A stretch of 37,946 bases of DNA, taken from positions 155,182-193,127 of the forward strand of contig JAHDID010000006.1 in NCBI GenBank assembly GCA_020630975.1, given 5' to 3'. The notes below the pieces were generated by a model. It worked only from the letters and a program-made list of their open reading frames with translations. It had not been told where the DNA came from and ran no database searches. The position numbers and the translations under genes are program-made. Positions 18,654-35,951 of this stretch are shown one piece after another. Numbering within the stretch: the stretch's first letter is position 1; every line of letters starts with the position of its first letter. The DNA comes from Verrucomicrobiota bacterium. GTDB lineage: Bacteria; Verrucomicrobiota; Verrucomicrobiia; Verrucomicrobiales; DEV007.

Positions 18654-20018
18654 CTAGAAGCGGACACCCATGGTCACTCCAAAAGTATCGACCTCGCCCA
18701 CTCCCCACCAGACGACACCAGCGGATAGATGATCATTGATCTGGCGGCTGCCGACTAAGTGAAAGTAGTCACCACTCCACATACCCATCAGCGAGTTTTT
18801 TCCAGCTCTCAGCGTACCACCACCGATCAGAGTCAGGCGCTCCTCGCTAGCGATGTACATCGGTCCTGCGTAGGGTGAAAAACTGACTCCGCCGAGCTCT
18901 GCCACCCGCTTACTCAACACGAGGTGGTAGGTCTGACTGATGGTTTTATTAAACTCATCCGCACTGGTCCCGAGGATCACGGCAGGATTGTCTTCTGTCT
19001 CGTCAAACAGGCGATACGACGCGAGAGGCGTGAGATCGTCTGAGAGCGGACGGTAGTCCAAACCTAAGGTGAATCTATCGGTAGCAGCGTAGCTAAGTGT
19101 CATCGCATACTTCCCATGAGGACCCTTTTCCGGCATGTATCGACCTGACCAGGCCACACCACGCCATACTTTGGATTTCCCAGCATTCGAACCGCTCACG
19201 GCGGCTCCAGAGCCTGGTCATGTCGGCATAGCTGGCACCTCACTCGAGACTTGAGAACCCCGCACGGGGGCTCCTGAGCCCGGTCATGTCGGCATAGCTG
19301 GCACCTCGCTCGATACACCCGATGATCTTGAGCCCCGCACGGGAGCTCCAGAGCCCGGTCATGTCGGCATGGCTGGCACCTCACTCGATACGCCTTGGGA
19401 TCTACCACCGGTAGATCGGTTGGTGGAGCCTCATGTCGGTGCAGCTGGAGTGCCACAGCTGGAATTGCTACTGGACCTGCCGTTGCCGATACTAGGCGCG
19501 GGTGTCGCCCTAAATGATCTCGTCTGCGGCGCACTGGCTACCGGCTGCTTTGCTCTCCAGTTAGGATTGCCTTCCCTACGATCGCGAGCTCTTCCTGCAG
19601 AACTAGAGCTCACAGCCTGTCCACTCGGAGCCGACCAACTGCGATTGCTTCCGCTGCTACTGCTATTGTATGAGCTAGAGGGCTTCGACCAGTTGCTGTT
19701 GCTGCTGCTAGACGAGCCAGACCAGCTGTTACTACCTCTGCTATTGGACGAACCCGACCAACTGCTGTTGTTGCTACTATTACTGCTACTTCCTGAGCTC
19801 GAACGACTCGTAGACGCCGAAGGAGTAGGCGGTGGTGGAATAGGACTTGGTTTACTTGCGCCGCCAACTGCGACAGGGATCGAATCTTTCTTATCTCATG
19901 TCGTACACTCAGGATCTGCCAGAGTCCTATCGGCGGCGAGGAGCAAGCCACAGGACACCAAGAGCGCTGTGTGACGACGAAACGACCGCCGTGCAGTGGA
20001 AGGAAAATACGTCTGCAT
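18654..20018 (-). CDS. Exported beta-barrel protein with five in-frame TGA codons (possible multi-selenocysteine protein)
   Basis: From the ATG at 20018 to the TAG at 18654 there are 454 codons with no TAA or TAG but five TGA (codons 41, 196, 220, 245, 267). Everything before, between and after them makes sense as one protein: an Arg-rich n-region and hydrophobic signal (ALLVSCGLLLAA, residues 18-29); a Pro stretch; a long Ser/Asn/Gly linker with spaced Trp (about 60-130); four repeats ending PAMPT or PAAPT before a TGA; and from about 275 a beta-barrel ending in VTMGVRF, the C-terminal Phe typical of outer-membrane barrels. Each TGA is preceded by ACA (Thr) and followed by a hairpin. Selenocysteine insertion, programmed readthrough or a decayed gene are the options. 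No selenium-machinery gene is in the window. The bare barrel could also start at a GTG at 19199. Confidence 0.6.
19189..19417 (-). promoter_or_regulatory. Four hairpins directly after in-frame TGA codons (bSECIS-like)
   Basis: Hairpins lie at 19399-19417 (8-bp stem, GGT loop, 21 nt after its TGA), 19330-19348 (7 bp, CGTGC loop), 19255-19273 (7 bp, CGTGC loop) and 19189-19207 (7 bp, CGTGA loop), the last three each 17 nt after their TGA. Every apical loop has G at position one or two. This fits the published bacterial SECIS pattern as I recall it (stem of 4-16 bp, loop of 3-14 nt, 16-37 nt from UGA). Stem pair C16-G24 in the third-repeat hairpin is G16-C24 in the last one, a compensatory change. 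Whether SelB would bind is not known. Confidence 0.5.
19205..19433 (-). repeat. Tandem coding repeats of 66, 75 and 72 bp, each holding a TGA
   Basis: Near-identical units begin at 19205, 19271 and 19346 on the plus strand (66 and 75 bp apart), with a diverged fourth unit up to 19433. All unit lengths are multiples of three, so the minus-strand frame is kept. Each encodes about PGSGAPVRGS, a variable stretch, VSSEVPAMPT and then TGA. Confidence 0.85.
19859..19875 (-). promoter_or_regulatory. Hairpin after the first in-frame TGA (bSECIS-like, weaker)
   Basis: After the TGA at 19898-19896, a 6-bp stem containing two G-U pairs closes an AGTTG loop 26 nt downstream. It fits the same loose pattern as the other four hairpins but is less stable and could be chance. 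Confidence 0.3.
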
Positions 20019-21783: not shown

Positions 21784-24700
21784 CTACACCACACCTGCCG
21801 TCGCTAAAACCTGAGTCTCAGCTATCGTCGTGGCGACGGCGTGTTTGCCCTCGATATCGGTTTGCACTTTTATCCCCTTATCCCGATAAGCGGGAAACTC
21901 GCGGAGCATCGCGTTGGCGAGGCGGGCGACCACTTCGCCTGTCTCAGGATTCGCCTGAACGATCTCGACACCACGTGGCCCATCGATCAGTCCCTGCCCT
22001 AGGGCTTTGCCGATCGCTTCTTTGGCACACCAGTAGCGTGTGATCCACTCTGCGGAGTCAGGATCGATCACCTTGAGGCTTTCGAGCTCAGCAGCGCTGA
22101 ATGCGATCTTGAGAAAGCTATCCTCTCGTGGAGCTATTTTTTCGATATCGACTCCGACTGTCTCGGTAGTCGATGCCATCGCCAGCATACGCGTGCCGCA
22201 GTGGCTCAGCGATACATAGGGAAAATCCTCGGGTGTATCGCCAGCACGCAGGTACGCTCTGGGCCGACCGTGCTCGTCGTGGTCTACCTCGATATCCGCC
22301 ATGAAGTTGCGCTGCCCCGTCATGCGGTAATAGAGCGTGCGTGCTGCGTCTTTGATCGCCTGTCGGCCAAACATCCACTGCGTGCGCCGCTCGGCAGTGC
22401 CCTCTAGCTTGGTAAACTCGCTATACTCGCGCTCACTCAGACTGACTCGGGCACCGATCGGCTGCATCGATGGATTGCGCAGATCATTCGGCACATCGAG
22501 CAGCACGGCCAGGCTCTCGGGCTGCGGGCTCACCTCGTCCCACTCTAGACTGAGCATGTAGATATCCTTCGGCCCGAAGAAATTGTACTCACGGAACGGT
22601 AGGTAAAAGCGCCAATACTGACAGCCATGCATCTGGCACCACATGCGCTCATTGGCGTCGACGATCTGTACCTCGTGCGCTACCTGGCGTGTGGTTTCCT
22701 TGCTGATGTAGGCTCTAGTGTAAAATCCCGCTCCCACATCGGGGCGCGGCCCATAAAAATCGATACGATCGACGCCGATCGGTAGCAGAATACGCCCCGA
22801 CTGATCCTCCTGCTCCAGATGCCAAGCACACATCGGGTGGAGCGATACATCTAGTAGCACTGGATCAAAAATAAACTGTGGATCGGGATTACTGGTAAAC
22901 AGTCGCTCTCTAGGCAGCACCGTCATCGTCGACTCGACACCATCGTCGCCGAAACGACCAAACTCCCCTACCCCGTGGAATTCCTCGCCATGAAATAGGT
23001 TTTTGTACAAACGCTCTCGCGATACCGAGATCGGGCGGCAATTGATCGGAGCATACTCTGGTGCGACCGGTGCCTCAGGATAAGCAACTGCGAGCTCGAT
23101 AGTAGCTGTACATGCAGGACGCTCAGGATTTCGCTCCTGCGATCCCCACCAGTGGAAAAGCTGTGCCTTTACCACCACCTTTTCACTATCCGATGCTTCG
23201 TAGTCGACCTCGGCCTCCACCTGAGCAAAAGCCTCGCCGCCATCCTCGTAGTCGAGCCACTTGTATAGCTTGATATCGCACATACCGGTGACCAGCCAGC
23301 CAGGCACCAGAGTCTGCGCGACTTCGCTAAACATTTCTATACTGAAAGTCATCGGTACCACCGGCAGTCCATACTGCTCAGGATCGACACGACTCAACTC
23401 TCGGCCACCCACCGTGTGCTGGGCGGAAAAGTAGTCCTCCTCCAGCGTCATCCGACGGCGCGCCACGATCGACTGCTGCGGCGCTAGCTCGAGGATCTCA
23501 TCGATCATCGGGTAGGCAGCAGGAGCAGGCTCAGCGATTAGCTCTGGCTCCGGCACAGGGAGCACCGTGTGGCCATGCTGCTGGGCGACATACTGCTGCA
23601 TCACCGACTGCTGCAGCGCCAAAAACTCCGCCATGGTATGCTGGTGTGCCAGCATGACCGCATCGCGATTGGATAGATCGGTCGGATAAGACTGATCAGA
23701 CTGATCCGGTACCTGCAATAGGCCACGCACACCGTAGAGATAAGTCGGATCCACGCCAAAGTGATGTACATGCAGCTGTGCCACTAGGTGTAGTAGCTGC
23801 TCTAGCCCTCCGCTGCGCTCGGTATTGGCAGGCATCACCAGCACATCTGGCTTGCCGCGTAGGATGTCGTCGACAAAAGCGCTCAGGTGATTGCGGGGGC
23901 CTACCTCGATGAAGCAACGCACCCCATCTCGATACTGATTTTCGATCAACTCGATGAACCGCACTGGGCGCTCCCAGTGAGCGAGAGTCAGTTCGCGTAT
24001 GCTGTCGGCATCTTGCGGGAAAAGCTCGCCAGTCGTGCAGCTATAGGTAGGCACCTGTGCGGGAGAGAAATCCATCTTCTCAAACATATCGCGTAGCACC
24101 ACCATGTAAGGCTCGAATAGCTCGGTGTGATAGGGCTGTTCCAGATCCAGAGGTTGGCAGAATTTACCTTTCTTGACGATCCACGCCTCGACGATTTCGA
24201 TATCGGCTTTCGCACCCACGACTACTGTCTGGTGGGGGCAGTTGAGCATAGCCACGTGCGCTGCTAGCTCGCGACCACAGTCTTCCATAGCACCATCGAT
24301 CAGCTTTTGCGCTTTCTTCGCCGACATACCGAGCGCCAGCATCCGACTATCGACAGCCCCCTCGGGTGCGAATCGGCCCAGCGCACGGAAACTCTCACCG
24401 AGCATCTGGTAGCGCTCGTCCGAGCCACTCAGAGCACCGGCTGCCATCAGGGCGAATAGCTCACCACCACTATGGCCCGCTATCGTATCCTGCTGCACGT
24501 GCAGGTGCTCGAGCATCGACATCATCACCCAATCGGCGACGATCGCAGCGAACATCGCATTATCCAATCGGCGTAGCTCCTCCTCCCGCTCATCGAGCTG
24601 CGCCTGACTGAGACCGGCCCGCTGGCGGAAGAAACGAGTCACGTAAGGCTCATCGACATCCTCCGCATTATCATGCAGCTGATCACAGTGATCGAGGATC

Positions 24701-25131
24701 GCTTTCACATTGGGGAAAAGCTCCGCCAGATCGGCAAACATCCCCTGATACTGCGATCCCTCTCCGGGGAACAAAAAACCTACCTTAGTGGCCTGGCCGC
24801 TTTCATCGATGCCAGCCGGACTAGCCGTGTAGTAGATACCGCTCACGTCACGGATCTGCTCCGCTCCATCGATTAGCTTTTCCAGAGCCGTGTTTAGCTT
24901 GGCAGATAAATCACTACTATCCTTGGCCACGATCGCCAAGCGATGCTGGTAGTGATAGTCACCCGCGCAGAAACTTTCCACCGCTAGCTGTGCCAGATCC
25001 TGCCCACTCGACTGAGCTAGCAATACCTGCGCACGCTCCACAAGATCATCGCGGTAGGCGGCTCCCAGTAGGAATACCTCGGCATCCCAAGAGGTGGGTG
25101 CAGGGGTGTTATCTTTACTCAAATCAATCAT
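21784..25131 (-). CDS. PKS subunit: acyltransferase - dehydratase - phosphopantetheinyl transferase fusion
   Basis: The 1115-residue protein has three parts. The N-terminal acyltransferase spans about residues 110-430, with FLFPGEGSQYQGM and the nucleophile motif GHSGGE near 218. A linker carries FLALQQSVMQQYVAQ near 505, a phrase also present after the AT of the first PKS protein. The central dehydratase-like double-hotdog region spans about 560-870, with HTVGG near 570 as the likely catalytic His and FDPVLLDVSLHP near 755 as the likely Asp-containing strand. The C-terminal Sfp-type phosphopantetheinyl transferase has GVDIEKI near 992 and WCAKEAIGKALG near 1035. It would load, dehydrate and activate its own carrier proteins. 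Its ATG overlaps the ketoreductase stop by 4 nt (ATGA), indicating translational coupling. It resembles PfaB/PfaC/PfaE functions joined in one chain. Confidence 0.88.
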   Translation of the reverse strand: MIDLSKDNTPAPTSWDAEVFLLGAAYRDDLVERAQVLLAQSSGQDLAQLAVESFCAGDYHYQHRLAIVAKDSSDLSAKLNTALEKLIDGAEQIRDVSGIYYTASPAGIDESGQATKVGFLFPGEGSQYQGMFADLAELFPNVKAILDHCDQLHDNAEDVDEPYVTRFFRQRAGLSQAQLDEREEELRRLDNAMFAAIVADWVMMSMLEHLHVQQDTIAGHSGGELFALMAAGALSGSDERYQMLGESFRALGRFAPEGAVDSRMLALGMSAKKAQKLIDGAMEDCGRELAAHVAMLNCPHQTVVVGAKADIEIVEAWIVKKGKFCQPLDLEQPYHTELFEPYMVVLRDMFEKMDFSPAQVPTYSCTTGELFPQDADSIRELTLAHWERPVRFIELIENQYRDGVRCFIEVGPRNHLSAFVDDILRGKPDVLVMPANTERSGGLEQLLHLVAQLHVHHFGVDPTYLYGVRGLLQVPDQSDQSYPTDLSNRDAVMLAHQHTMAEFLALQQSVMQQYVAQQHGHTVLPVPEPELIAEPAPAAYPMIDEILELAPQQSIVARRRMTLEEDYFSAQHTVGGRELSRVDPEQYGLPVVPMTFSIEMFSEVAQTLVPGWLVTGMCDIKLYKWLDYEDGGEAFAQVEAEVDYEASDSEKVVVKAQLFHWWGSQERNPERPACTATIELAVAYPEAPVAPEYAPINCRPISVSRERLYKNLFHGEEFHGVGEFGRFGDDGVESTMTVLPRERLFTSNPDPQFIFDPVLLDVSLHPMCAWHLEQEDQSGRILLPIGVDRIDFYGPRPDVGAGFYTRAYISKETTRQVAHEVQIVDANERMWCQMHGCQYWRFYLPFREYNFFGPKDIYMLSLEWDEVSPQPESLAVLLDVPNDLRNPSMQPIGARVSLSEREYSEFTKLEGTAERRTQWMFGRQAIKDAARTLYYRMTGQRNFMADIEVDHDEHGRPRAYLRAGDTPEDFPYVSLSHCGTRMLAMASTTETVGVDIEKIAPREDSFLKIAFSAAELESLKVIDPDSAEWITRYWCAKEAIGKALGQGLIDGPRGVEIVQANPETGEVVARLANAMLREFPAYRDKGIKVQTDIEGKHAVATTIAETQVLATAGVV

Positions 25132-26672
25132 GCGACACTATGGGCTGCAGCTTGGTTAGTGGATGGGGTTACCAGATTATCTGCGCCACCTGCGATGATC
25201 ACTTCGCTGGCGCCTTTCGGGCCATGGACGACCTCATCGACAAACATGCGACAACCAACCTCTGGCGAGATCAAGGCAATGCCTCGTGCGCTGAGATGTT
25301 TCTCTAGATCGGAGACCATGCCGATGCTACCCCACGGTCCCCACGCCACAGCAAAGGTCCTAGCTGCCCATTGGCGATCTAGCTCGGTTGCTAGTTTGCA
25401 TAGCACGTCGTTGGCCGCAGCGTAGTCGGACTGACCTCGGTTGCCATAGCGGCTGGCGATCGAGGCAAATAAAGAAACAAACTGTAGCGACTCGGGACGT
25501 AGCGCATCGATCAGTGCATAAGTGCTATCGACTTTGGTTTTGAAAACTCGGTCAAACGACTCGGGAGTCTTATCTTTCACCAGCTTATCATCGATCACAC
25601 CAGCACCGTGGATCACCCCGTCTAGCTTGCCATGGCTGGCGTAGATAGATTCACATGCAGCAGCGAGTGCTTCACGATTCGATACATCGACACTGTAGTA
25701 CTCCACAACCGATCCGGTGGCACGTATGCTTTCGATGTTTGCCCGCACCTCGCGCTCGGTCATGATTTTATTGAAAGCTTTCTCTACCACTGCTGGCGCA
25801 GGCTGCTCGCCGCGAGATTTGAGATCTTCGATGATGGCGCGCTTTAGCTCGGCTGGCTCGACGCAGTCGATGGTCGATTCGTCTTCCACCTCTGATGGTA
25901 GTGGAGAGCGTCCCATCAGGATCAGGGTCGACTGGTAGCGCTCGCCTATCTGCTCTGCGATAGCGGCTGTGATGCCTCGCGCTCCACCGGTGATCAAGAT
26001 CACGCTATCTCTGTCTAGCTGCACCGTCTGCTCACCGCTCGCGCCGAGCACAGCCGTATCGACCTGCCAGGTGACTCGCTGCCCATCGCGGTAACCTACC
26101 TCATAAGGACCCGCGGGATCCGCCAGCTCGCGCTCGATACACTCGATGACTTCGCTACTATCCGTAGTGGGAGCGTAATCGATGGTGCGCACCAGCACAT
26201 CCGGCCACTCCATACCGAGACACTTCAGATAGCCGCTGATACCGCCGCTACCGGCTCTAGCTAGAGACTCCAGAGACTCTGCCCCAAAGCCTAGCTGCCC
26301 ACCTAGTGTGGTGGCACTGAGCACAAAGGCGACCTCGGCTTCGACCACTTTGGTCAGTAGGTAAATGGACTTCACCTCCAGTGAGGCACGCTCGGCACTA
26401 TCACCATCGATACTAGCGAATGGTAGTAGATGGATGATCCCGCCGATCGGCCCCATCTGAGCGCGGATATCGGCAATCAGTTTGCTCACCGCATCGATAT
26501 CTGTCAGGTCCGCCCGAAAATCTTCGCCATTGGCGCCCGCTGCGTGCTGAACCACTACTACCTGCTGGCCTAAATCCGCTAGGCGATCGGCGCAGGCATT
26601 GGCGATGCCGCGACCATCATCGGTGAGGATGACGACACCCTCTGGCAGAACCAGCGATCCCAGCTGAGGCAT
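25128..26672 (-). CDS. PKS ketoreductase (PfaA-type KR), possibly expressed as a fusion by slippage
   Basis: From the ATG at 26672 the product has 514 residues with the two-part build of large PKS ketoreductases. A structural half begins with GVVILTDDGRGIANA. The catalytic Rossmann half has LITGGARGITAAIAE near residue 228, and the Ser-Tyr-Lys-type active site lies in ASIASRYGNRGQSDYAAAND near 400-420. It reduces beta-ketoacyl chains to beta-hydroxy chains. The frame is open upstream of the ATG for 25 more codons, right up to the A10 tract in the preceding gene, and no ribosome binding site precedes the ATG. A -1 shift at the tract would join this domain to the ACP of the preceding protein, giving the domain order of PfaA. 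The next gene overlaps its stop by 4 nt. Confidence 0.9.
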   Translation of the reverse strand: MPQLGSLVLPEGVVILTDDGRGIANACADRLADLGQQVVVVQHAAGANGEDFRADLTDIDAVSKLIADIRAQMGPIGGIIHLLPFASIDGDSAERASLEVKSIYLLTKVVEAEVAFVLSATTLGGQLGFGAESLESLARAGSGGISGYLKCLGMEWPDVLVRTIDYAPTTDSSEVIECIERELADPAGPYEVGYRDGQRVTWQVDTAVLGASGEQTVQLDRDSVILITGGARGITAAIAEQIGERYQSTLILMGRSPLPSEVEDESTIDCVEPAELKRAIIEDLKSRGEQPAPAVVEKAFNKIMTEREVRANIESIRATGSVVEYYSVDVSNREALAAACESIYASHGKLDGVIHGAGVIDDKLVKDKTPESFDRVFKTKVDSTYALIDALRPESLQFVSLFASIASRYGNRGQSDYAAANDVLCKLATELDRQWAARTFAVAWGPWGSIGMVSDLEKHLSARGIALISPEVGCRMFVDEVVHGPKGASEVIIAGGADNLVTPSTNQAAAHSVA

Positions 26673-26734
26673 CGGCAGCGACTTGAGCGATACTAGGCCG
26701 CGCTGAATCTGCGAGGCAGTATCGCTATCAGTAT

Positions 26735-29700
26735 CTACACGCTCAGTTTTTTTTTTGCACCGTCTGTAGCAACGGCCTGACTATCGAGAAATTCCTCTAG
26801 GTAGTCGAGTATCTGCTGCAGCGTCCGCAGTCCGGAGAGTTTCTCCAAGTCGAGGCCACCGTCATCATCGGCGGAGCCATCCATACTAGCGGAGCCTGGC
26901 ATGATGAACTCTGCCAACTCCCCAAGAATCTCGACGCGCTTGATCGAATCGATACCCAGATCGGCCTCTAGATCGAGATCCACGTCGAGCATCTCCTCTG
27001 GATAGCCGGTGCGTTCACCGACGATACTGAGCAAATGAGCCTTGATCTCGTCTATCGATACATCGGCCCCACCAGCGGGTGCCGTGGGCTCTGTGCTAGC
27101 AGTCTTCTCGGCTTTGGGAGCGCTGCTACCATTTCCGTTACTGCTGCCATTAGATTTTGCCTCAGTGAAAGCTTCGACACGATTGGTGCTACCATTACCG
27201 TTACCATTACTCTGCACAGCATCTGGAGTGATCGCTCCATTGCCATTGCCATTCCCGTTACCATTGGCACGATGATTGCCATTGCTAGCTGGAGGAGCCA
27301 CAGGTGCTGGAGCTGCTGCCACTGGAGCCGGCGCTGGGATCGCTACAGGAGCGATAGGCGCTGGTAACGGCGGCAGGGACATAGCTGGTAGATTTGCTAC
27401 TGGCACATCGCTACCGAGATAGGCATTCATCACCGAGCGCTGAGTCTCTAGAAATTGCGACATCAGGCTTTGGAATCCCATCATCACCTGATCAGCTCCT
27501 GCTGCAGGAATCATAGTGGGACGAGGCAGGCTCGGCACACTCGGTGCGTGACCATTTCCGTTGCCATTGCCATTACTGTGGCCGTTGCCATTTCCGTTGG
27601 TTGATACTGGCGCTGCAGCCGGTGCGGGTTTGCTTTCCATCTGTTGCTTGGTGGTGTTGCTGGTAGTTTTTGAAAGTGGTTGTTGAGCTTTCCCTTCGCT
27701 AGCCCCCTGCTGCTTCGCAGGCTTCTTCTCAGCGAAGTTTTTGCTATTGGTCTGAATGATTTGCTCCATCCGCTCGGGATCTGCCTCGATCGATGGATGA
27801 GGCTGGCCTAGCAGTAGTGGCTCAGGTGCCGACTCAGGTTTAGCCCGCACCGCATTCACGACCCACTGATTGGGCTTGGCCTCGACTTTAGGTGCGGCCA
27901 ATACGGTGGCGAGCTTTTCTGCAGACAGATCACGCACGCTATAGAGATAGTCTAGGTCGACAGGGTAACCGGCTGCGATCAGTCGCCCGAGCACGGTCTG
28001 TAGTTGTGTGATGCCGTGCTTACCTTTTTGGTCGGTAGCAAGCGATAGAGAATCAGGCGCGATCTCTCGGCTCAGCTGGCTGAGCACGGAACTCGGTCCT
28101 ACTTCGATAAAGGTATCGATACCATCGGCAGTCATCGACTCGATCATACCGACAAAATCGACTGAGCTAGTCAGATGATCCTTGAGCAGAGTCCGCTGAC
28201 GCGCCGCCCCAGCAGGGTATTTCTTGCCGCGGCTATTGGAGTAGACCGGCTTCTCAGCCTTGCCAAAATCGATACCATCGAGCTGTTCTGCAAAAGCGGC
28301 ACCGGCCTGCTCGACGAATGGCGAATGGAATCCGCAGGATACTGGAATCTGACGGCAATCGAGCTCAGCTTTTTCGAAAATGGCTTTCACCGCATCGACT
28401 TCAGTATCAGGTAGCGAAATCACCGTTTGAGACGGCGAATTGATATTCGCTAAATATACGCTGTCCTGCCCTGCGATCAGTTTCTTTACCTGAGCCGCAT
28501 CAGCCTTCACCGCGATCATAGTCGAACCACTCGTGGCATGCTCTCTGACGATTCGGCCACGCTGCAGTGATACCTCGTAGAGATCGCTCTCGGAGATCGT
28601 ACCTGCTGCGTAGTGAGCTAGGTATTCGCCATAGCTGTGCCCTGCAAAGGCATCCCCAGCCAGACCAAACTGCTGTAGCAAATGATACATCGCCGCTCCA
28701 CACGCACCTAGCGCAGGCTGAGCGACATCCGTACTCGCGAGACTGCTGCGCTGCTCGGCACGCTGCTCATCGGTAAACGCAGACGGTGGATACATGTAGT
28801 GCGCCAACGGACGCTGCAGACGATCACCGACATGGGCTGCTGCACGATCTAGGGTATCGCGCACCTCTGGGAAGGCGATAGCTAGGTCGGTGAGCATATC
28901 GGTATACTGCGAGCCCTGCCCCGGGAATAACATACCGATACGGCCTGCCTCTGTAGGCGCGGCTGATTGGTAAGCAATCCCACTAGGGTGCGCCCACTCG
29001 GCACTATCGAGACGCTCCGATACCTTTTCGATCTTTTTCACCAGATCCTCAGGATCGCTAGCGACGATCGAGAGTACTACGGCTCCCTCTTTTGAACTAG
29101 CCGCTGCGACTGCTGCGGCCAATTTAGAAAACGCATAAGCATGACTGACGGCCTGAAGCGAGCTGACCAGCTGGCTCAGTTCTTTCTTCAGCTCATCGCG
29201 GCTATCGGCGCGCCAGACAAACAGTTCAGTCGGCCATTGGCCACTGGCGGGCTCGCTACCGCCATCGAAGCCACCTCGGTACTCAGATAGCACTGTGTGA
29301 TAGTTCGTGCCACCAAAGCCAAACGCACTCACACCAGCGACTCGCGACTCGTCGCCCTCGCGCACCCAGGGTCGGGTGTCTTGGTTTAGATAAAGAGCAC
29401 TCTCGTCAAATTTTGCATTCGGATTAGGTGTCTCCACCAGGGTCGGTGGTAGCACCTTGTGGTGCAGCGCTAGCGAGGTCTTGATGACGCCGGCGATACC
29501 TGCGGCACATTTGCTGTGGCCGATCATCGACTTCACCGAACCCAGTGCGCAGGACTGCACATCGGCCCCCGACTCGCGTAGCACCGTGGATAGAGCGGTA
29601 GCCTCTGTCTGGTCACCGACGACGGTGCCGGTGCCGTGCGCCTCGATCAGGCGAACTTTCTTGGGAGCTATGTTAGCCTTCTCGTAGGCGCGATTCACTG

Positions 29701-32695
29701 CCCTGGCCTGGCCAGTCGCATTCGGTGCCGTCAGGCCCTTGGCTTTGCCATCGCTGGATGAGCCGACACCTTTGATCACAGAGTAAATCTTATCACCATC
29801 GCGCTCCGCATCGGCGAGACGCTTGAGCACCACCACTCCGACACCCTCTGATAGCACGATACCATCGCCCTCGGCATCGAATGGACGGCTGCGTCCTTTG
29901 CGCGATAGCGCGTGAGTTTTGCTAAAGGCCACATAGGCATACGGGGTCTGCACCGCATCCGCCCCCATAGCGATCGCCATATCGGCAGAGCCGCTCTCCA
30001 GCTCGCGCACACAGGCATCGAGCGACGCTAGGCTAGAGGCACAGGCAGCATCGATAGCGTAGTTCGATCCGCCGAAGTCGAATCGGTTGGCGACTCGGCC
30101 GGAGCAGATATTCGACAACACACCGGGGAAAGAATCCTCATTCCAGTCTGGGATGATGTCCTTGGCCTTTTCCAGCACCTCGTCGGAGCTGATCGGCATA
30201 TCCTCAAAGAAATCAGTCAAGCGCATGCAGGTGCGGAAGCCGTAGGACACCGACTTGGGTCCTGCGCCACCACCGATACCTACGATACAAGCCGTGCGAT
30301 CGCGATCGAATGGGCGATCTTGGTAGCCGGCATCGCGCAGCGCATCATTCACCGCCTCCAGACTGAGCAGCTGCAGCGGCTCGATGACCTCCATGCTCTT
30401 CGGCGTGATGCCATACTTGAGCGGGTCGAATGGGATATCTTTGATGAAGCCACCCCACTTGGAGTAGATGCGGTCCTTCGCCTTCGGGTCTTCATCGAAG
30501 TAGAGGCGCCAGTCCCAGTGGGTCTTGGGCACTTCCTGCACGGCGTAGTGCTTGTCTAAAATATTTTGCCAATACTCGTCGAGCCCAGAGGCATCGGGGT
30601 AGTAGCACGACATACCGATGATCGCGATGTCGCTCGGCTCCTGATCCGGCTCGCTCAGCACTTTGGCGACTGGGCGCTCAGACTGAGCTTTGAGGAAATC
30701 CCAGCCCCCATCGGTCACCCGCTGGTGGAGCTCGGCCATGGTCAGCACCGAGTCATTGAGCGCAGCGACTTGGCCGATCATATACATGCCCTGATCATAC
30801 TGCTCGTCCTCGGCTACCTCGACTAGCTCGCGGGTCTTCGAGCCCGGCTTGCGATCGACACCCTTCGATGCGACGCGGAGTCGACCGATATTCATCCCCT
30901 CGAGGTGGCGGACGATCTCCTCGTGGCTGGCGCCCTCTGCCATCAGGCGATTCTTTTCGCTCTCAAATAGCTCAGCATACGGCGTATCGATGCAGCGTAT
31001 CGCATGGCCTGGGCCGGTCTCCAGCACGACGGTCTTTTCGCACTCGACAGCCTCTTCCTGAAATTTCGAAACGATCGCGCCTCCCTCGACTGCCTCCTGA
31101 GTGAACAGGTAGGCCGTGCCCATCAGCAGACCGATCTTTACCCCGCGTGCAGCGAGTGGCGCCGTCATCGCAGCAACCATGGCCGAAGATGCCTCATCGT
31201 GGATGCCGCCGGCGAAGACCAAGTGCAGATCCTTGATCGGCTTTTTCTCGATCTGCGCCAAGATCTGATCGCAGGCACTCTGCCAGAGCACAAAACTCGA
31301 GCGAGGCCCGACGTGGCCGCCACACTCGCGCCCCTCAAAGATGAATCGACGCGCTCCTTGTTTCAGAAAGTTCTCCAACAGACCTGGTGATGGTACGTGC
31401 AGGTAAGTGGTGATGCCCTGGTCCTCAAATTGCTTCGCCTGATCCGGACGACCACCGGCGATGATGGCGAAAGGCGGCTTGTGCTTAAAGACCTCTTTGG
31501 TCTGCTCGTCGCGGATCGCCTGCGGCAAAAAACCCAGCATCCCGACACCCCAAGGCATGCCATCGAGCCGCGGCTTGGCCTCGCTGAGCAGCTGCCCGAT
31601 CTCCTGACCTCGCATGACGGCCAGCGCTAGGAAAGATAAACCACCGTGGCTGGACACTGCATCGGCGAAATCAACGGTATCGCTGACCCGAGTCATCGGT
31701 CCCTGCAGCAGAGGGTAGCGGGTGCCGTGGCTAGCTGCTAGGTCCGAACCCTCAGCCAGATGCCCCAGCTCTGCAGCGAGAGGTAGACTGGTCGTGATCG
31801 AGCGCTGCACAGCTGTCACGATACCGCCCACGGTCACATGCGTATCCGCCAGAGACTTGGCTAGGCACACATCCTGTCCTAGCGGCAGGCAGTCCTCGCT
31901 ACCTGCGATCAGAGTCGCTAGCTTCGCGCTCCAGCCCGACTTTTCAGCAGCCTCGCTGACCGCTTTGAAAGCTTCGCTATTTCTGCGATGGAAAAGGTGG
32001 CATGCCTCATCTGTGCCACTGCCGACGAGCGACACCTCGCTACCATCGGCACTGCGCAGCCACTGCCCGAGCGCCGTTTTTGCCAAGCCCAGCTCTCGGC
32101 TGAGGAGGAGCTGGCTATCCAGCACCACGCCTGCCGCACCAGCTGCGACCACTGCCGCTGCGGTATTCACACCGATACCACCCTGCACCAGGTAGGGTAT
32201 CTTCAGCCCCTGCTCTGTAGCTGCCTGCTGCCATTTCTGGGCTAAGATAAAGGCAGCCTCCGAGCCGACGAAGCCGCCACTCTCTGAGCCTTTCAGTATA
32301 AGCCGCTCGGCGCCTAATGCGGCCGCCTCGATCCCCTGCTCTGCACTCGTCACCTGCACGGTGAAGGACAGATTTTTCGTCTTCAGTGCTTTAGCCAGAT
32401 CCTGCCAGTCACCACTGACCGGGCTGGTGCTCAATATCGGATGCACCTCGACAGGCTGCTGAGCGCACCAATCGAGAAAAGTCTTTTTGGTTACCTGAGG
32501 CACGCGAAGCGCAATTTGGTCGACTCCAAAGGCCGATACCGCCTCCAACTCCGCGGAAAGCGCCTGCCAATCGACACTCTCCGAAGGCAGCTCGATAGCT
32601 GCCTGAGCACCAGCTCGATAGGCGGCTACTATGCCTCTCTGGTGAGCACCAATAGCAGGTGCAAATAGGGCGATGACCTCAGTAGGCTTGTGCAT
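26735..32695 (-). CDS. PUFA-synthase-like PKS: ER-ER-KS-AT-ACP
   Basis: From the ATG at 32695 (preferred over a TTG at 32746) the protein has 1986 residues. Domains: a FabK/nitronate-monooxygenase-like domain (about 1-320) in which the flavin-site motif reads GSESGGFVG, so the usual His is Phe; a second such domain (about 330-680) with intact GRECGGHVG near 455; a ketosynthase (about 690-1125) with DAACASS Cys near 885, EAHGTGT and IGHSKCAAG; an acyltransferase (about 1250-1560) with LFPGQGSQ and GHSYGEY; a long Asn-Gly-rich linker with FLETQRSVMNAYL; and one ACP with Ser near 1917 in GIDSIKRVEI. It should extend chains iteratively and reduce enoyl intermediates. It is first in the operon. 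PfaA proteins usually carry several ACPs; here one is seen. Confidence 0.93.
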   Translation of the reverse strand: MHKPTEVIALFAPAIGAHQRGIVAAYRAGAQAAIELPSESVDWQALSAELEAVSAFGVDQIALRVPQVTKKTFLDWCAQQPVEVHPILSTSPVSGDWQDLAKALKTKNLSFTVQVTSAEQGIEAAALGAERLILKGSESGGFVGSEAAFILAQKWQQAATEQGLKIPYLVQGGIGVNTAAAVVAAGAAGVVLDSQLLLSRELGLAKTALGQWLRSADGSEVSLVGSGTDEACHLFHRRNSEAFKAVSEAAEKSGWSAKLATLIAGSEDCLPLGQDVCLAKSLADTHVTVGGIVTAVQRSITTSLPLAAELGHLAEGSDLAASHGTRYPLLQGPMTRVSDTVDFADAVSSHGGLSFLALAVMRGQEIGQLLSEAKPRLDGMPWGVGMLGFLPQAIRDEQTKEVFKHKPPFAIIAGGRPDQAKQFEDQGITTYLHVPSPGLLENFLKQGARRFIFEGRECGGHVGPRSSFVLWQSACDQILAQIEKKPIKDLHLVFAGGIHDEASSAMVAAMTAPLAARGVKIGLLMGTAYLFTQEAVEGGAIVSKFQEEAVECEKTVVLETGPGHAIRCIDTPYAELFESEKNRLMAEGASHEEIVRHLEGMNIGRLRVASKGVDRKPGSKTRELVEVAEDEQYDQGMYMIGQVAALNDSVLTMAELHQRVTDGGWDFLKAQSERPVAKVLSEPDQEPSDIAIIGMSCYYPDASGLDEYWQNILDKHYAVQEVPKTHWDWRLYFDEDPKAKDRIYSKWGGFIKDIPFDPLKYGITPKSMEVIEPLQLLSLEAVNDALRDAGYQDRPFDRDRTACIVGIGGGAGPKSVSYGFRTCMRLTDFFEDMPISSDEVLEKAKDIIPDWNEDSFPGVLSNICSGRVANRFDFGGSNYAIDAACASSLASLDACVRELESGSADMAIAMGADAVQTPYAYVAFSKTHALSRKGRSRPFDAEGDGIVLSEGVGVVVLKRLADAERDGDKIYSVIKGVGSSSDGKAKGLTAPNATGQARAVNRAYEKANIAPKKVRLIEAHGTGTVVGDQTEATALSTVLRESGADVQSCALGSVKSMIGHSKCAAGIAGVIKTSLALHHKVLPPTLVETPNPNAKFDESALYLNQDTRPWVREGDESRVAGVSAFGFGGTNYHTVLSEYRGGFDGGSEPASGQWPTELFVWRADSRDELKKELSQLVSSLQAVSHAYAFSKLAAAVAAASSKEGAVVLSIVASDPEDLVKKIEKVSERLDSAEWAHPSGIAYQSAAPTEAGRIGMLFPGQGSQYTDMLTDLAIAFPEVRDTLDRAAAHVGDRLQRPLAHYMYPPSAFTDEQRAEQRSSLASTDVAQPALGACGAAMYHLLQQFGLAGDAFAGHSYGEYLAHYAAGTISESDLYEVSLQRGRIVREHATSGSTMIAVKADAAQVKKLIAGQDSVYLANINSPSQTVISLPDTEVDAVKAIFEKAELDCRQIPVSCGFHSPFVEQAGAAFAEQLDGIDFGKAEKPVYSNSRGKKYPAGAARQRTLLKDHLTSSVDFVGMIESMTADGIDTFIEVGPSSVLSQLSREIAPDSLSLATDQKGKHGITQLQTVLGRLIAAGYPVDLDYLYSVRDLSAEKLATVLAAPKVEAKPNQWVVNAVRAKPESAPEPLLLGQPHPSIEADPERMEQIIQTNSKNFAEKKPAKQQGASEGKAQQPLSKTTSNTTKQQMESKPAPAAAPVSTNGNGNGHSNGNGNGNGHAPSVPSLPRPTMIPAAGADQVMMGFQSLMSQFLETQRSVMNAYLGSDVPVANLPAMSLPPLPAPIAPVAIPAPAPVAAAPAPVAPPASNGNHRANGNGNGNGNGAITPDAVQSNGNGNGSTNRVEAFTEAKSNGSSNGNGSSAPKAEKTASTEPTAPAGGADVSIDEIKAHLLSIVGERTGYPEEMLDVDLDLEADLGIDSIKRVEILGELAEFIMPGSASMDGSADDDGGLDLEKLSGLRTLQQILDYLEEFLDSQAVATDGAKKKLSV
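26747..26756 (-). promoter_or_regulatory. A10 slippery tract at the PKS-ketoreductase junction
   Basis: Ten consecutive A on the coding (minus) strand encode KKK three codons before the last residues of the first PKS protein. In the zero frame translation ends at the TAG at 26735. In the -1 frame there is no stop, and reading passes through 25 codons into the ketoreductase ATG frame. Runs of nine or more A are known sites of RNA polymerase slippage. A sequencing or assembly error in the homopolymer would look the same. Confidence 0.65.
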
Positions 32696-32928
32696 GATGT
32701 GGTAACGGGCTTGGCAGGAATTCGAGAGAGGAATGGGTTTCGACAACGGCGCGATAATAAGTTGCTTAAAAATTAATAATTAACAAGCTGAGATACGCCT
32801 TAAAAGTTCATATATTTACAAATATTATGAATAATATATACCATTTCTCAAAATCGTCGATTATTTTTGCGGCGTTTTTCAATTTTTTTGAAAATTTTCA
32901 GGCTAACTTTTTATTTTTCTCAAAATAA
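32696..32928. promoter_or_regulatory. AT-rich divergent promoter region of the PKS operon
   Basis: This 233-bp stretch separates the PKS operon from the divergent 32929 gene, and positions 32760-32928 are far more AT-rich than the rest of the window. It holds a perfect palindromic element, ATATTAT-GA-ATAATAT (32822-32837), and an inverted repeat TTTTCAA / TTGAAAA (32876-32882 with 32888-32894). Either may be an operator. No gene is seen. Exact promoter boxes cannot be assigned because nearly any window here is TA-rich. Confidence 0.5.
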
Positions 32929-34071
32929 ATGACCACACGCCTCCTGCCATTTTCACTACTGACCGGCCTCGCATGGTTGATTTCCTTCGCTGAATGCCGT
33001 GGGGAAGAGCAGCCTTACATCTTTACCCACTACTTCCATGCTTCACCTGAGACGATTGGCTGCACGGCCGACATCTCGGCCCGACAGGCACTAGAAGATG
33101 CCGGGATCTCCTTCCCCAAAGGAACTGACGTGGCTTATGCCAAAGAAGCGAATGCTCTACTGGTGCAAAATACCCCAGCACAGATCGAGCGTATCAAACA
33201 ACTGCTGAGCACCAATTCACATCAGCAGACTGACGATCTGCGTGCTTTGATCCATGTGATCCATATCGAATCTGCATCACCACTGCTAGACACTCGCCGA
33301 ATCAATCGAAGAACTGTCAGCTCGAAACAGACGCCAGCCCAAAAACGCGTCGCCGTCTATCCGGCCGATCACAAAGCAGAGATGTACCGCTATCTCACCG
33401 CACCAGACCTAGACCAGGCCAAGACCGAACAACTGCTGCCGCGGATGGTAGCAACGACTCTGACCGTCGATGCCTACAAGACGCTGCTGCGGTCCTCAGC
33501 CGACAAAAAGCCCAGCGGTATGGTGGAGGCCCCGCATTTTTTCCTAAAAGACGGCGAGTCATCGATATCCCGAGTCGGCGACTACGCACTAGGCATCACC
33601 GGTCATCTAGCACCCGAGCTAGGCGGCATGGAGCTGGAGATCTACTTCCGCGAGCCAAAGGGCATCAAAAACCGCAGTCGCCCCGTCTCGCAGTGCAAAG
33701 CCAGCCTCCGAGACGGCTCCATGCTGGTGATGATCGACGAGATCTCTCCGGGGCGCTACCTATCCACCTTCATCAAAGGCGATCTGGTGACTGCCGAGGG
33801 CACCCTACTACGCGACAGCACTCCAGCAGTCATGGCCGAGACCGACCAGGCTTCCAGCCACCCTACCTTCTCTCTAGCCGATATCGAAACTGCCGACCAA
33901 GCCGATCGACTAGCACTGGCAGCGATCAAGCTGCTCAATTCCAAGAAAATAGCTCAGGCAAAAAAGAAGCTAAAGGCCTGCCTCGAGACTCTACCTACCC
34001 ACCCTCGTACCGAATCTCGGAGGACTGTCTATCAGAGCCTCTTGGACCACTCGTACGACGCGAAACCTTGA
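32929..34071 (+). CDS. Exported protein with secretin-N-like domain
   Basis: The 380-residue product has a signal peptide (LLPFSLLTGLAWLISFAEC). Residues of about 30-110 show the pattern of the short N-domains of secretins: a strand, a helix (ARQALEDAGI), FPKGTDVAYAKEANALLVQNT, then the helix PAQIERIKQLL. Similar periplasmic proteins are common in Verrucomicrobiota and are often linked to secretin or pilus-like systems. The rest is a beta-rich domain and a helical C-terminus that looks like one TPR pair (ALAAIKLLNSKKIAQAKKKLKAC). It has no secretin pore domain. It diverges from the PKS operon and ends in TGA two bases before a 21-bp-period repeat. Function unknown. Confidence 0.6.
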   Translation: MTTRLLPFSLLTGLAWLISFAECRGEEQPYIFTHYFHASPETIGCTADISARQALEDAGISFPKGTDVAYAKEANALLVQNTPAQIERIKQLLSTNSHQQTDDLRALIHVIHIESASPLLDTRRINRRTVSSKQTPAQKRVAVYPADHKAEMYRYLTAPDLDQAKTEQLLPRMVATTLTVDAYKTLLRSSADKKPSGMVEAPHFFLKDGESSISRVGDYALGITGHLAPELGGMELEIYFREPKGIKNRSRPVSQCKASLRDGSMLVMIDEISPGRYLSTFIKGDLVTAEGTLLRDSTPAVMAETDQASSHPTFSLADIETADQADRLALAAIKLLNSKKIAQAKKKLKACLETLPTHPRTESRRTVYQSLLDHSYDAKP

Positions 34072-34244: not shown

Positions 34245-35951
34245 ATGCCTGCACCTCCCTACACCTATCTATTTCTTACTCTCTCCTGCCCACTCCTCTG
34301 GGTAGGCTGCTCTGCCGACTTTTATCGACAGAAAGCAGATATCGAGACTCACGCCGTGCTGTTTGGGAAAACTGCCGAAGTCGAAAACGTCGAGAACGAC
34401 TCAGTAGATATCGAGCCACCACCTACCTGGAGCGCGGCCAGTCTAGACGGCCTGCCCACTGCCAAGCAGGAATCATTCCTCGGCAGTGGAAAGACCAAAG
34501 CTAACGCAAAGATGCTCAGCCTAGACGAGGCGCTGAGCACAGGGATCACTCACAACCGCAGCTACCTCACCCGCAAAGAGGCCGTCTTCCTCGAGGCCCT
34601 AGATCTCACACTAGCCCAGCATAGGCTGAGCCCCATCTTCGGCGGCGGAGCCGATGCCACCCGGCAGAGCGACTCTCGGCGGGCTGCAGCTCAGGCAGGG
34701 CTCAACAGCTTGGTCGCCACCAATACCTTCACGCGTAATCAGAGCGCCAGCTTTGACTACCTCTATAAAACCGGCGCGCGGCTATCGGCCGACTTCACTC
34801 AAGACTTCCTCAACTTTCTGGCGGGCAGCCGCGATGTGAACAATTCGAAGCTCGCCTTCACCCTAGTCCAGCCTCTGCTCAAAGGCGGAGGCCAAAAGAC
34901 CACACTGGAGGCGCTGACACAGGCCGACCGCGATGTGCTATACGCCCTGCGAGACTTTGCTGATTTTCGCAGAGACTTCGTCGTCGATCTAGTGTCCGAC
35001 TACTACCGCACGCTGCAGGCTCGAGACAATGCTCGAAATGCCTATCTAGCCTACCAGGGCTTTTTCACCAGTGTCGAGCGCGAAGAAGCGCTAGCCGAGG
35101 AAGATCGCCGCACTCAGGCCCAGCTAGGCCAGCTAAAGCAGGCTACCCTACTATCGAAAAGCCGCTGGCTACGCTCGATACGGAGCTACGAGAGTCAGCT
35201 CGACGAGCTCAAACTAACCCTGGGTATCCCAGTCGATACACCACTGGCACTCGACTCGGCAGAGCTCGATAGCCTGCGCATCCGCCAACCCGACATCACT
35301 CCCGAAGAGGCCATCCAAATCGCGCTCGCCTCTCGCCCCGATCTAGCGACCAGCCGCGATCGCATCGACGATGCCGCCCGCAAGATACTAGTAGCCGAGC
35401 AGGATCTAAAGCCTGGCCTCGATCTAGTAGTCGACTATGAGACGCGCAGCGATCCTGGCGATCTCAGCCCTGATCTGAATCTCGATCGCCGCAATATCGC
35501 GACCGGCATCGATCTAGATCTACCACTCGATCGCAAAGCCGAACGAAATCGCTACCGCTCCAGCCTGATCACCCGGCAGGCTCGTGAGCGTCAGCATGAG
35601 GAAGCCGTCGACCGTGCGCGCATCCAGATCAATGATGACTGGCGTGCCCTCGAGCTGGCTGAGCAAAACTACGAAATCGCTCTGCAGGGTATCTCTCTAG
35701 CGCAGCGGCGCCTCGAGGAGCAGCTGCTGCTCGCCGAGATCGGCGGTGGTAGAGCCAGAGATCTCGTCGATGCTCAAGAGGACCTACTCGATGCCCAAAA
35801 CCAGCGCACCTCGACACTGATCGATCACACTTTGGCCCGTCTACGCCTGTGGCGCGACCTGGGCATCCTATACATCAAAGACGATGGTAGCTGGGTCGAG
35901 CGCATCCAGCAGGAGCCATCCGTCATCGCTCGCCCAGTGCCCTCTGCATGA
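34245..35951 (+). CDS. TolC-family outer-membrane efflux protein
   Basis: The 568-residue product begins with a hydrophobic signal ending in LLWVGCSAD. Cys is a possible lipidation site, although the -3 residue is atypical. The body has the two-fold TolC pattern: LSLDEALSTGITHNRSYLTRKEAV, long helices with heptad spacing, short strands such as FTLVQPLLKGGGQKT, then a second half with ITPEEAIQIALASRPDL and the closing LVDAQEDLLDAQNQRTSTL coiled coil. It would form a trimeric outer-membrane channel for an export pump. Its stop overlaps the start of the adaptor gene by 4 nt (ATGA), so the two are translationally coupled. The inner-membrane pump is not in the window and is probably encoded downstream. 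Confidence 0.93.
   Translation: MPAPPYTYLFLTLSCPLLWVGCSADFYRQKADIETHAVLFGKTAEVENVENDSVDIEPPPTWSAASLDGLPTAKQESFLGSGKTKANAKMLSLDEALSTGITHNRSYLTRKEAVFLEALDLTLAQHRLSPIFGGGADATRQSDSRRAAAQAGLNSLVATNTFTRNQSASFDYLYKTGARLSADFTQDFLNFLAGSRDVNNSKLAFTLVQPLLKGGGQKTTLEALTQADRDVLYALRDFADFRRDFVVDLVSDYYRTLQARDNARNAYLAYQGFFTSVEREEALAEEDRRTQAQLGQLKQATLLSKSRWLRSIRSYESQLDELKLTLGIPVDTPLALDSAELDSLRIRQPDITPEEAIQIALASRPDLATSRDRIDDAARKILVAEQDLKPGLDLVVDYETRSDPGDLSPDLNLDRRNIATGIDLDLPLDRKAERNRYRSSLITRQARERQHEEAVDRARIQINDDWRALELAEQNYEIALQGISLAQRRLEEQLLLAEIGGGRARDLVDAQEDLLDAQNQRTSTLIDHTLARLRLWRDLGILYIKDDGSWVERIQQEPSVIARPVPSA

Follow-up and report, generated by a model that had tools for sequence, protein, structure and literature searches.

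The window, a stretch of 37,946 nucleotides from a Verrucomicrobiota genome (GenBank assembly GCA_020630975.1, contig JAHDID010000006.1), contains on its minus strand a single frame of 454 codons, running from an ATG at 20018 to a TAG at 18654 with no internal TAA or TAG. This frame has in-frame TGA at codons 41, 196, 220, 245 and 267. At the composition of the frame about 11.1 TAA or TAG codons are expected in 454, and the probability of finding none is 1.3e-5. None of 2000 mononucleotide shuffles was equally free of them, and the two other frames of the same strand contain 3 and 27. The frame and its five TGAs had been noticed in an earlier sequence-only reading and were seen again directly, as were the TGA spacings of 465, 72, 75 and 66 bp. 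That these spacings are multiples of three is true, but restates the shared frame. The triplet ACA lies directly 5′ of all five TGAs, as that reading also said, partly because of duplication, three of the TGAs sitting in near-identical modules.

The features of the gene are given in Table 1. The earlier reading placed a signal peptide, a linker and a beta-barrel in this one frame; the barrel is borne out by a structure model, and the signal peptide and linker are assigned by eye. A lipoprotein reading of the N-terminus (L-V-S-C) was rejected by eye, the hydrophobic stretch running on past the cysteine, and a Cas1 profile match of the protein (E 0.42) is noise. The three modules around UGA 3 to 5 have 49–51 of 57 bases in common, and to judge from the sequence the module of selenocysteine (Sec) and SECIS-like hairpin is duplicated in tandem. 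The modules have Met (MPTU) at the first motif position, where the family described below has Sec. No second copy of the five-TGA protein was found in the window's genome. Elsewhere in the window, positions 21784–32746 of the minus strand hold large polyketide/fatty-acid synthase-like genes, which by eye look like a PfaABC-type cluster.

Table 1. Features of the five-UGA gene in the window and other Sec-like genes of the same genome (U, predicted Sec).
Feature	Position	Strand	Basis or detail
Coding frame of the predicted five-Sec protein, 454 codons + TAG	18654..20018	-	sequence
Signal peptide, residues 1-34, cleavage probably after TLA-34	19917..20018	-	translation, by eye
UGA 1, codon 41, E-C-T-T-U-D = CxxU motif	19896..19898	-	sequence
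Hairpin of UGA 1, CTGTCGC-AGTTG-GCGGCGC, 6/7 pairs	19858..19876	-	hairpin scoring; weakest of five
Ser/Asn/Gly-rich linker	19599..19823	-	translation, by eye
UGA 2, codon 196, A-P-T-U-G	19431..19433	-	sequence
Hairpin of UGA 2, GATCTAC-CGGTG-GTAGATC, 7/7 pairs	19399..19417	-	hairpin scoring
Putative Sec+SECIS module copy 1, SEVPAMPT-U-PGSGAPVRGS	19329..19385	-	UGA 3 19361-19359; hairpin 19348-19330
Putative Sec+SECIS module copy 2	19254..19310	-	UGA 4 19286-19284; hairpin 19273-19255
Putative Sec+SECIS module copy 3, aligned to family UxxU-PGEG motif	19188..19244	-	UGA 5 19220-19218; hairpin 19207-19189
Predicted outer-membrane beta-barrel domain, ~12 strands, terminal Phe	18657..19157	-	AlphaFold2 model, fold comparison
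Peroxiredoxin-like Sec-like frame, TGGUTKQC	L156 (G000:C84)		
Redoxin-like Sec-like frame, WUPFC	L160 (G000:C101)		
FdhA Sec-like frame, SRAUHAPT	L163 (G000:C93)		

Selenocysteine machinery in the genome

The genome that contains the window (G000; 7.14 Mb, 158 contigs) has the complete Sec machinery. Its tRNA-Sec scores 58.6 bits against an Rfam cut-off of 47 and has the anticodon TCA (ARAGORN). SelA (522.4, cut-off 267.9), SelD (301.1, cut-off 125) and SelB (296.5 bits including the neighbouring segment, cut-off 242.25) are also present. The search for selA, selB, selC and selD that the earlier reading had proposed thus finds all four. TGA is a normal stop in the window, as that reading claimed; the one at 34071 was checked directly, and those at 35951 and 25128 are known from ORF ends, which overlap the next ATG as ATGA.

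Three further Sec-like frames are found in this genome, for an FdhA, a peroxiredoxin-like and a redoxin-like protein. A hairpin with 7/7 pairs lies behind the UGA in two of these genes, and the third has 6/7 at 32 nt. TGAs upstream of the FdhA match score 5–7 pairs too, so a simple hairpin score is not specific when used alone.

Hairpins downstream of the UGA codons

According to an excerpt of PMC1088965, bacterial SECIS elements have in common a small apical loop that contains a guanosine and lies shortly after the UGA. Hairpins were scored over a stem of seven positions with a G among the first two loop bases, and such a SECIS-like hairpin follows each of the five UGAs. Those of UGA 3, 4 and 5 have 7/7 pairs each and the loops CGTGC, CGTGC and CGTGA, starting 17 nt after the UGA; that of UGA 2 also has 7/7 pairs, with the loop CGGTG starting at 20 nt. 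UGA 1 has 6/7 pairs and the loop AGTTG, which starts at 26 nt. The window has 1219 other TGAs. With a 5-nt loop, 7/7 pairs are found behind 8 of them and at least 6 behind 167; with loops of 4–6 these numbers are 41 and 400. A hairpin like that of UGA 1 is therefore found behind 14% of other TGAs (33% with loops of 4–6), and UGA 1 taken alone is not above background. UGA 3 to 5 are copies rather than three independent cases, given the bases that their modules have in common. Their arms vary with the pairing kept (GAGCTCC/GGGGCTC, GAGCCCC/GGGGTTC and GAGCCGC/GCGGTTC).

The folding energies of whole 61–65-nt segments after the window UGAs are ordinary (z −0.89 to +1.02) and did not single out the hairpins; the fixed geometry and the covariation did. 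The Rfam search gave no SECIS match, and its single match was chance-level.

A family of homologues with conserved UGA codons

A first scan of genome contigs, with the whole window protein as query, found no relative. A second scan with a family alignment, covering 84,980 species genomes, gave 79 loci, whose record titles name Verrucomicrobiales, Akkermansiaceae, Planctomycetota, Acidobacteria (many of them Pyrinomonadaceae), Armatimonadetes, Zixiibacteriota, Binatia and others. A search of 141 genomes, including that of the window, with the window protein matched 26 of them at E 0.01, and reading the frames of these 26 left 21 with the domain or motif. The selA gene is present in 18 of these 21 carrier genomes versus 41 of the 120 others (Fisher 1.5e-5), and the three carriers in which it was not found are 53–59% complete. 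A profile search of 387 genomes across the phylum, with at most eight candidates per genome among the matches listed, returned only the window's own copy. A degenerate double-UGA DNA pattern, which hits 31 of these 387 genomes, was rejected; its sites are chance-like and it misses the motif of the centre genome, G034. No relatives were found on viral contigs or, with the barrel of one homologue as query, on plasmids.

The usual motif of the family is V-P-[SA]-U-P-[LVM]-U-P-G-E-G, before the same domain; a Verrucomicrobiales group has the variant U-V-M-U. The second Sec site is UGA in all 76 homologues that reach the motif, and the first is UGA in 73, Cys in three and Trp in none. The check on homologues that the earlier reading had called for therefore shows the frame and the UGAs kept, in separately assembled relatives from several phyla, or exchanged with Cys; at the first site the window modules have Met. 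No all-Cys form is found among the confirmed relatives, where one of the two scan patterns spelled an all-Cys motif (C presumably back-translated as TGT/TGC), and none appeared in the 387 phylum genomes, the plasmids or the viral contigs. The homologous sequences suggest that the second motif site may have to be Sec.

The 76 sequences comprise 75 deduplicated motif-reaching rows and L033, which was counted by hand. L038, L041, L042, L045, L097 and L104 were dropped from the counts as being from the same contig or near-identical; L043, L044, L046 and L048–L058 were not entered, being taken as already in the set. L031, L035, L036 and L037 were left out after reading (half of the broken copy in G018, or no motif), L032 and L034 have no motif in any frame, and L026, L030, L079, L112 and L118 are cut before the motif.

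The window copy of the barrel is 30–40% identical to those of its relatives. Within the genus of the window organism one of the 32 other genomes (G018) has a verified member, and the five-UGA form is present in one genome only.

Covariation and selection in the family

With the second UGA as the anchor of the alignment, at least 6/7 pairs form in 76 of 80 rows. These hairpins fall into two registers: the loop begins 17 nt after this UGA in class A and 21 nt after it in class B. The four rows outside both registers are window UGA 1, window UGA 2, L020 and L028; the hairpins of window UGA 1 and UGA 2, which have other spacing, were excluded from the covariation counts. Class A (58 rows) has 86.2% of its cells paired versus 22.7–63.3% when one arm is slid by 1–3 positions, and double-change cells number 93 versus 4–18. 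In class B (20 rows) 95.7% of cells are paired versus 25–55% when slid, with 20 versus 2–9 double-change cells; in all these covariation figures relatedness is removed only in part. On a quick barrel tree the register switches about seven times between A and B (17 and 21 nt), with the hairpin intact throughout.

In 52 of 54 class A rows, the third base of the Gly codon that closes PGEG pairs with its partner base six codons downstream (C-G 23, T-A 18, A-T 10 and G-C 1); the other two rows have C-C. In the RAV subset all 17 GGT codons are accompanied by A and all 13 GGC codons by G (Fisher 8e-9, with no correction for relatedness). On the same quick tree, from which the motif was left out, the Gly base and its partner change five times each; the three independent pairs on supported branches are all concordant, a number that cannot reach significance alone (sign test p 0.25). 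The two UGAs of a typical member lie 9 nt apart, start to start, which puts the beginning of the loop 26 or 30 nt from the first, and one hairpin may therefore serve both.

Twelve homologue pairs were tried for dN/dS and the nine with equal-length barrels were computed. The dN/dS after the UGAs is 0.07–0.16 in eight of the nine pairs; it is 0.29 in the ninth, which has very few differences. The part behind the UGAs is therefore translated and functional in the relatives, an indirect indication of translation past the UGA. A decayed gene, one of the options that the earlier reading had kept, is not supported.

Structure and domain content

The last module and the C-terminal domain of the window protein (200 residues) were modelled with AlphaFold2 from a 55-row alignment. 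The model has a pLDDT of 92.9 and a pTM of 0.86, with twelve long strands and one of three residues, and the domain models as an outer-membrane barrel of roughly 12 strands. The solved folds that rank highest among those listed by VIA-align are FapF (Z 16.2, 175 aligned, rmsd 3.0), KdgM (16.1) and EstA (15.4), followed in the list by the COG4313 channel (15.2) and a designed 12-strand barrel (13.2). Foldseek against the PDB gives weak matches, one of them with E < 0.001, at a TM of about 0.2–0.5, and a PDB sequence search at E 0.1 found no solved relative. The signal peptide and the terminal Phe, both seen by eye, are consistent with an outer-membrane barrel, and the fold matches suggest that the modelled barrel is closed.

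None of 55 family members matches a profile in NCBIfam 20.0 at E 0.01. The Pfam family YjbH (PF06082) matches two of the 55 at E 0.01, weakly (best 8e-4), and does not match the window member; L066 scores 16.3 bits against its cut-off of 24.

In 35 of 75 homologues the Sec segment is preceded in frame by a TlpA-like WxTxCxPC motif. Three of these fusions were run against Pfam and have Redoxin and AhpC-TSA matches at this domain. The window protein has no match to a TlpA/ResA-like thioredoxin profile. In L109 a YHS domain (Pfam) takes the place of the TlpA-like domain. A separate protein, YHS/TlpA-like by eye, is found just upstream of the family gene at L109:2173-2886 (Armatimonadetes) and L119:5027-5713 ('Bacterium isolate'); these upstream proteins were grouped by blastp clustering.

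Gene neighbours

A metal transporter is found near 19 of the 79 homologue loci (all of L041–L119, 802 kb), with RND proteins at 8, CDF-type at 9 and P-type ATPases at 7, in overlapping sets. Of five control proteins taken from the window, DUF1501 is found at 5 of the same 79 loci and the other four at 2, 1, 0 and 0. Pfam matches of sample neighbours include ACR_tran, Cation_efflux, E1-E2 ATPase (one with HMA) and a CusB-like protein with heavy-metal binding domains; 4 of 10 neighbour proteins have no Pfam match. The RND background in 11 carrier genomes is 74 matches in about 61 Mb, some in pieces, or about 1.2 per Mb. This gives 8 RND loci against about 1.0 expected in 802 kb, for a background from Verrucomicrobiota only and loci that are related. 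No metal genes were recognised by eye beside the window gene, and at least four His in the 50 residues before the motif are present in only 4 of 75 homologues.

A small exported-looking PCYCHC protein lies upstream of the family gene at L089:4282-4881, with matching ORFs in L068 and L093. By eye it resembles the CYCXC family (PF13798), which is Sec-containing in the 2026 inventory.

Proposed function and alternative explanations

The window gene very probably encodes an exported selenoprotein with five Sec residues; the strength of this conclusion, drawn from sequence, follows from family conservation, covariation and the Sec machinery. The proposal of a multi-selenocysteine protein in the earlier reading is thus upheld by machinery, homologues and selection. 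That reading did not include the SECIS-like hairpins, the family, or a two-Sec UxxU as the typical form, which in the window gene is reduced to xxxU and multiplied.

The usual family member consists of a signal peptide, often followed by a TlpA-like thioredoxin, a short U-P-x-U-P-G-E-G segment and a predicted outer-membrane barrel of about 12 strands. In the window member the segment with its hairpin has been duplicated in tandem, its first Sec is changed to Met, and two more predicted Sec sites are found upstream. We infer that the Sec segment lies at or in the periplasmic mouth of the barrel, where it may form a soft-metal site (of the Cu, Ag or Hg type) or a selenol redox site at the outer membrane. 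The TlpA-like domain, where present, would keep the selenols reduced.

A role of the Sec segment with soft metals of the Cu, Ag or Hg type is proposed tentatively, at somewhat under an even chance. Met, Cys and Sec are all soft-metal ligands and Met cannot form a diselenide. The Met in the window modules, where the family has Sec, would therefore keep a soft-metal ligand and lose the diselenide, and gives a slight lean to soft-metal handling. The whole proposal, of an unlisted, widespread and obligately Sec-containing outer-membrane family with a five-Sec member arisen by tandem cassette duplication, the selenols of which bind or reduce soft metals at the pore, seems to us evenly balanced between right and wrong.

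The same family could instead have a purely redox Sec site, a UxxU diselenide or CxxU fed by the TlpA-like domain, with no role for metals. We consider this a serious possibility, a little short of even; the protein would then act at the cell surface as a reductase of peroxides or disulfides. Both UxxU and CxxU are motifs typical of redox sites, the TlpA-like CxPC is in frame in nearly half of the homologues and confirmed by Pfam in the fusions scanned, and Cys takes the place of the first Sec in a few. Against it are the Met of MPTU, a non-redox residue, and the metal-efflux genes that adjoin 19 of the 79 loci. Overall a purely redox role appears as likely as soft-metal handling.

It is less probable, and on balance unlikely, that the family is real and the window member mostly truncated, with the weak hairpin of UGA 1 limiting expression and the extra Sec sites drifting. 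The 6-pair hairpin of UGA 1 lies in an unremarkable fold, the first-position Sec is gone from all three modules, and G018 is the only other genome of the genus with a verified member. The hairpins of the duplicated modules differ, however, by changes that preserve pairing.

A decaying pseudogene with a frame open by chance save for TGA, or a sequencing error, is very unlikely. Five stops in one frame and a five-UGA form confined to one genome would fit it, but 454 codons lack TAA and TAG, UGA is fixed in relatives from several phyla whose genomes were assembled separately, and the barrel is under purifying selection in relatives, the window copy being 30–40% identical and modelling confidently.

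Least probable of all, with hardly any weight, is that UGA is read as tryptophan or by unspecific read-through, without selenium: the linker has many TGG Trp codons and a PTW sequence would be nothing unusual chemically, but TGA is a normal stop in the window and, in relatives such as L025 and L028, closes the frame directly behind the barrel, the homologous first site is Cys in three sequences and never Trp, and the full Sec machinery and SECIS-like hairpins are present.

Relation to known selenoproteins

The 2026 review (PMC13188914) lists, in the portion available, 119 selenoprotein families, most with one Sec and a small subset with two or three; three is the most that this portion gives for one protein. 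The available part of its table has no entry with the motif and domain of the UxxU-barrel family, and none is found in the accessible text of a 2022 review (PMC9312934). For candidate selenoproteins of planctomycetes, PMC4807772 refers to a supplementary table. The open-licence literature searched, preprints aside, gave no description of the UxxU-barrel family. We conclude with high confidence that the family is unlisted within the libraries searched. Homology-based selenoprotein searches lean on Cys homologues and can easily overlook a family that has none; excerpts of the deep-Sep paper (PMC12013277) say that its own method may miss such families.

The window gene resembles the bacterial SelB/bSECIS selenoproteins, such as FdhA and the Sec peroxiredoxins, in having an in-frame UGA, a G-loop hairpin downstream and a genome with SelA/B/C/D. 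A 7-pair hairpin, also with the loop CGTGA, is present in the Sec peroxiredoxin-like gene of the same genome. The window protein differs from these in having a predicted five Sec in one chain and an exported barrel, and belongs to another family. The MtrB/PioB-type GSU2204 family (NF041027) and the TonB-dependent receptor FCYXU (NF049945) are also Sec-containing outer-membrane barrels, but have one Sec each in the available inventory entries, and none of the 55 UxxU-barrel members matches NCBIfam. Three UxxU proteins in that part of the inventory, the Prx-like thiol:disulfide oxidoreductase (PF00578), NF041115 and an FmdB-type regulator, have the same two-Sec spacing and are set apart by domain identity. 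In the fused UxxU-barrel members CxPC is retained within the TlpA-like domain, and UxxU lies between this domain and the barrel.

FapF, the KdgM porin, the EstA autotransporter barrel and the COG4313 channel share the outer-membrane barrel fold, with no PDB sequence match; to our knowledge none of them contains Sec. Vertebrate Selenoprotein P is unrelated and has its SECIS in the 3′-UTR, not as hairpins behind each UGA. It is likewise described as a secreted protein with many Sec residues.

An obligately Sec-containing family, if true, would be contrary to the statement, in the excerpts of PMC12013277, that Cys homologues now seem to exist for all known selenoproteins. Standard gene calling cuts the genes of this family at every UGA, the window gene included. 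With two UGAs 9 nt apart in the typical member and five in one message in the window gene, the UxxU-barrel family is a natural test of how one or several SECIS drive close or repeated UGA decoding in bacteria, and it makes selenium chemistry at the outer membrane worth looking for.
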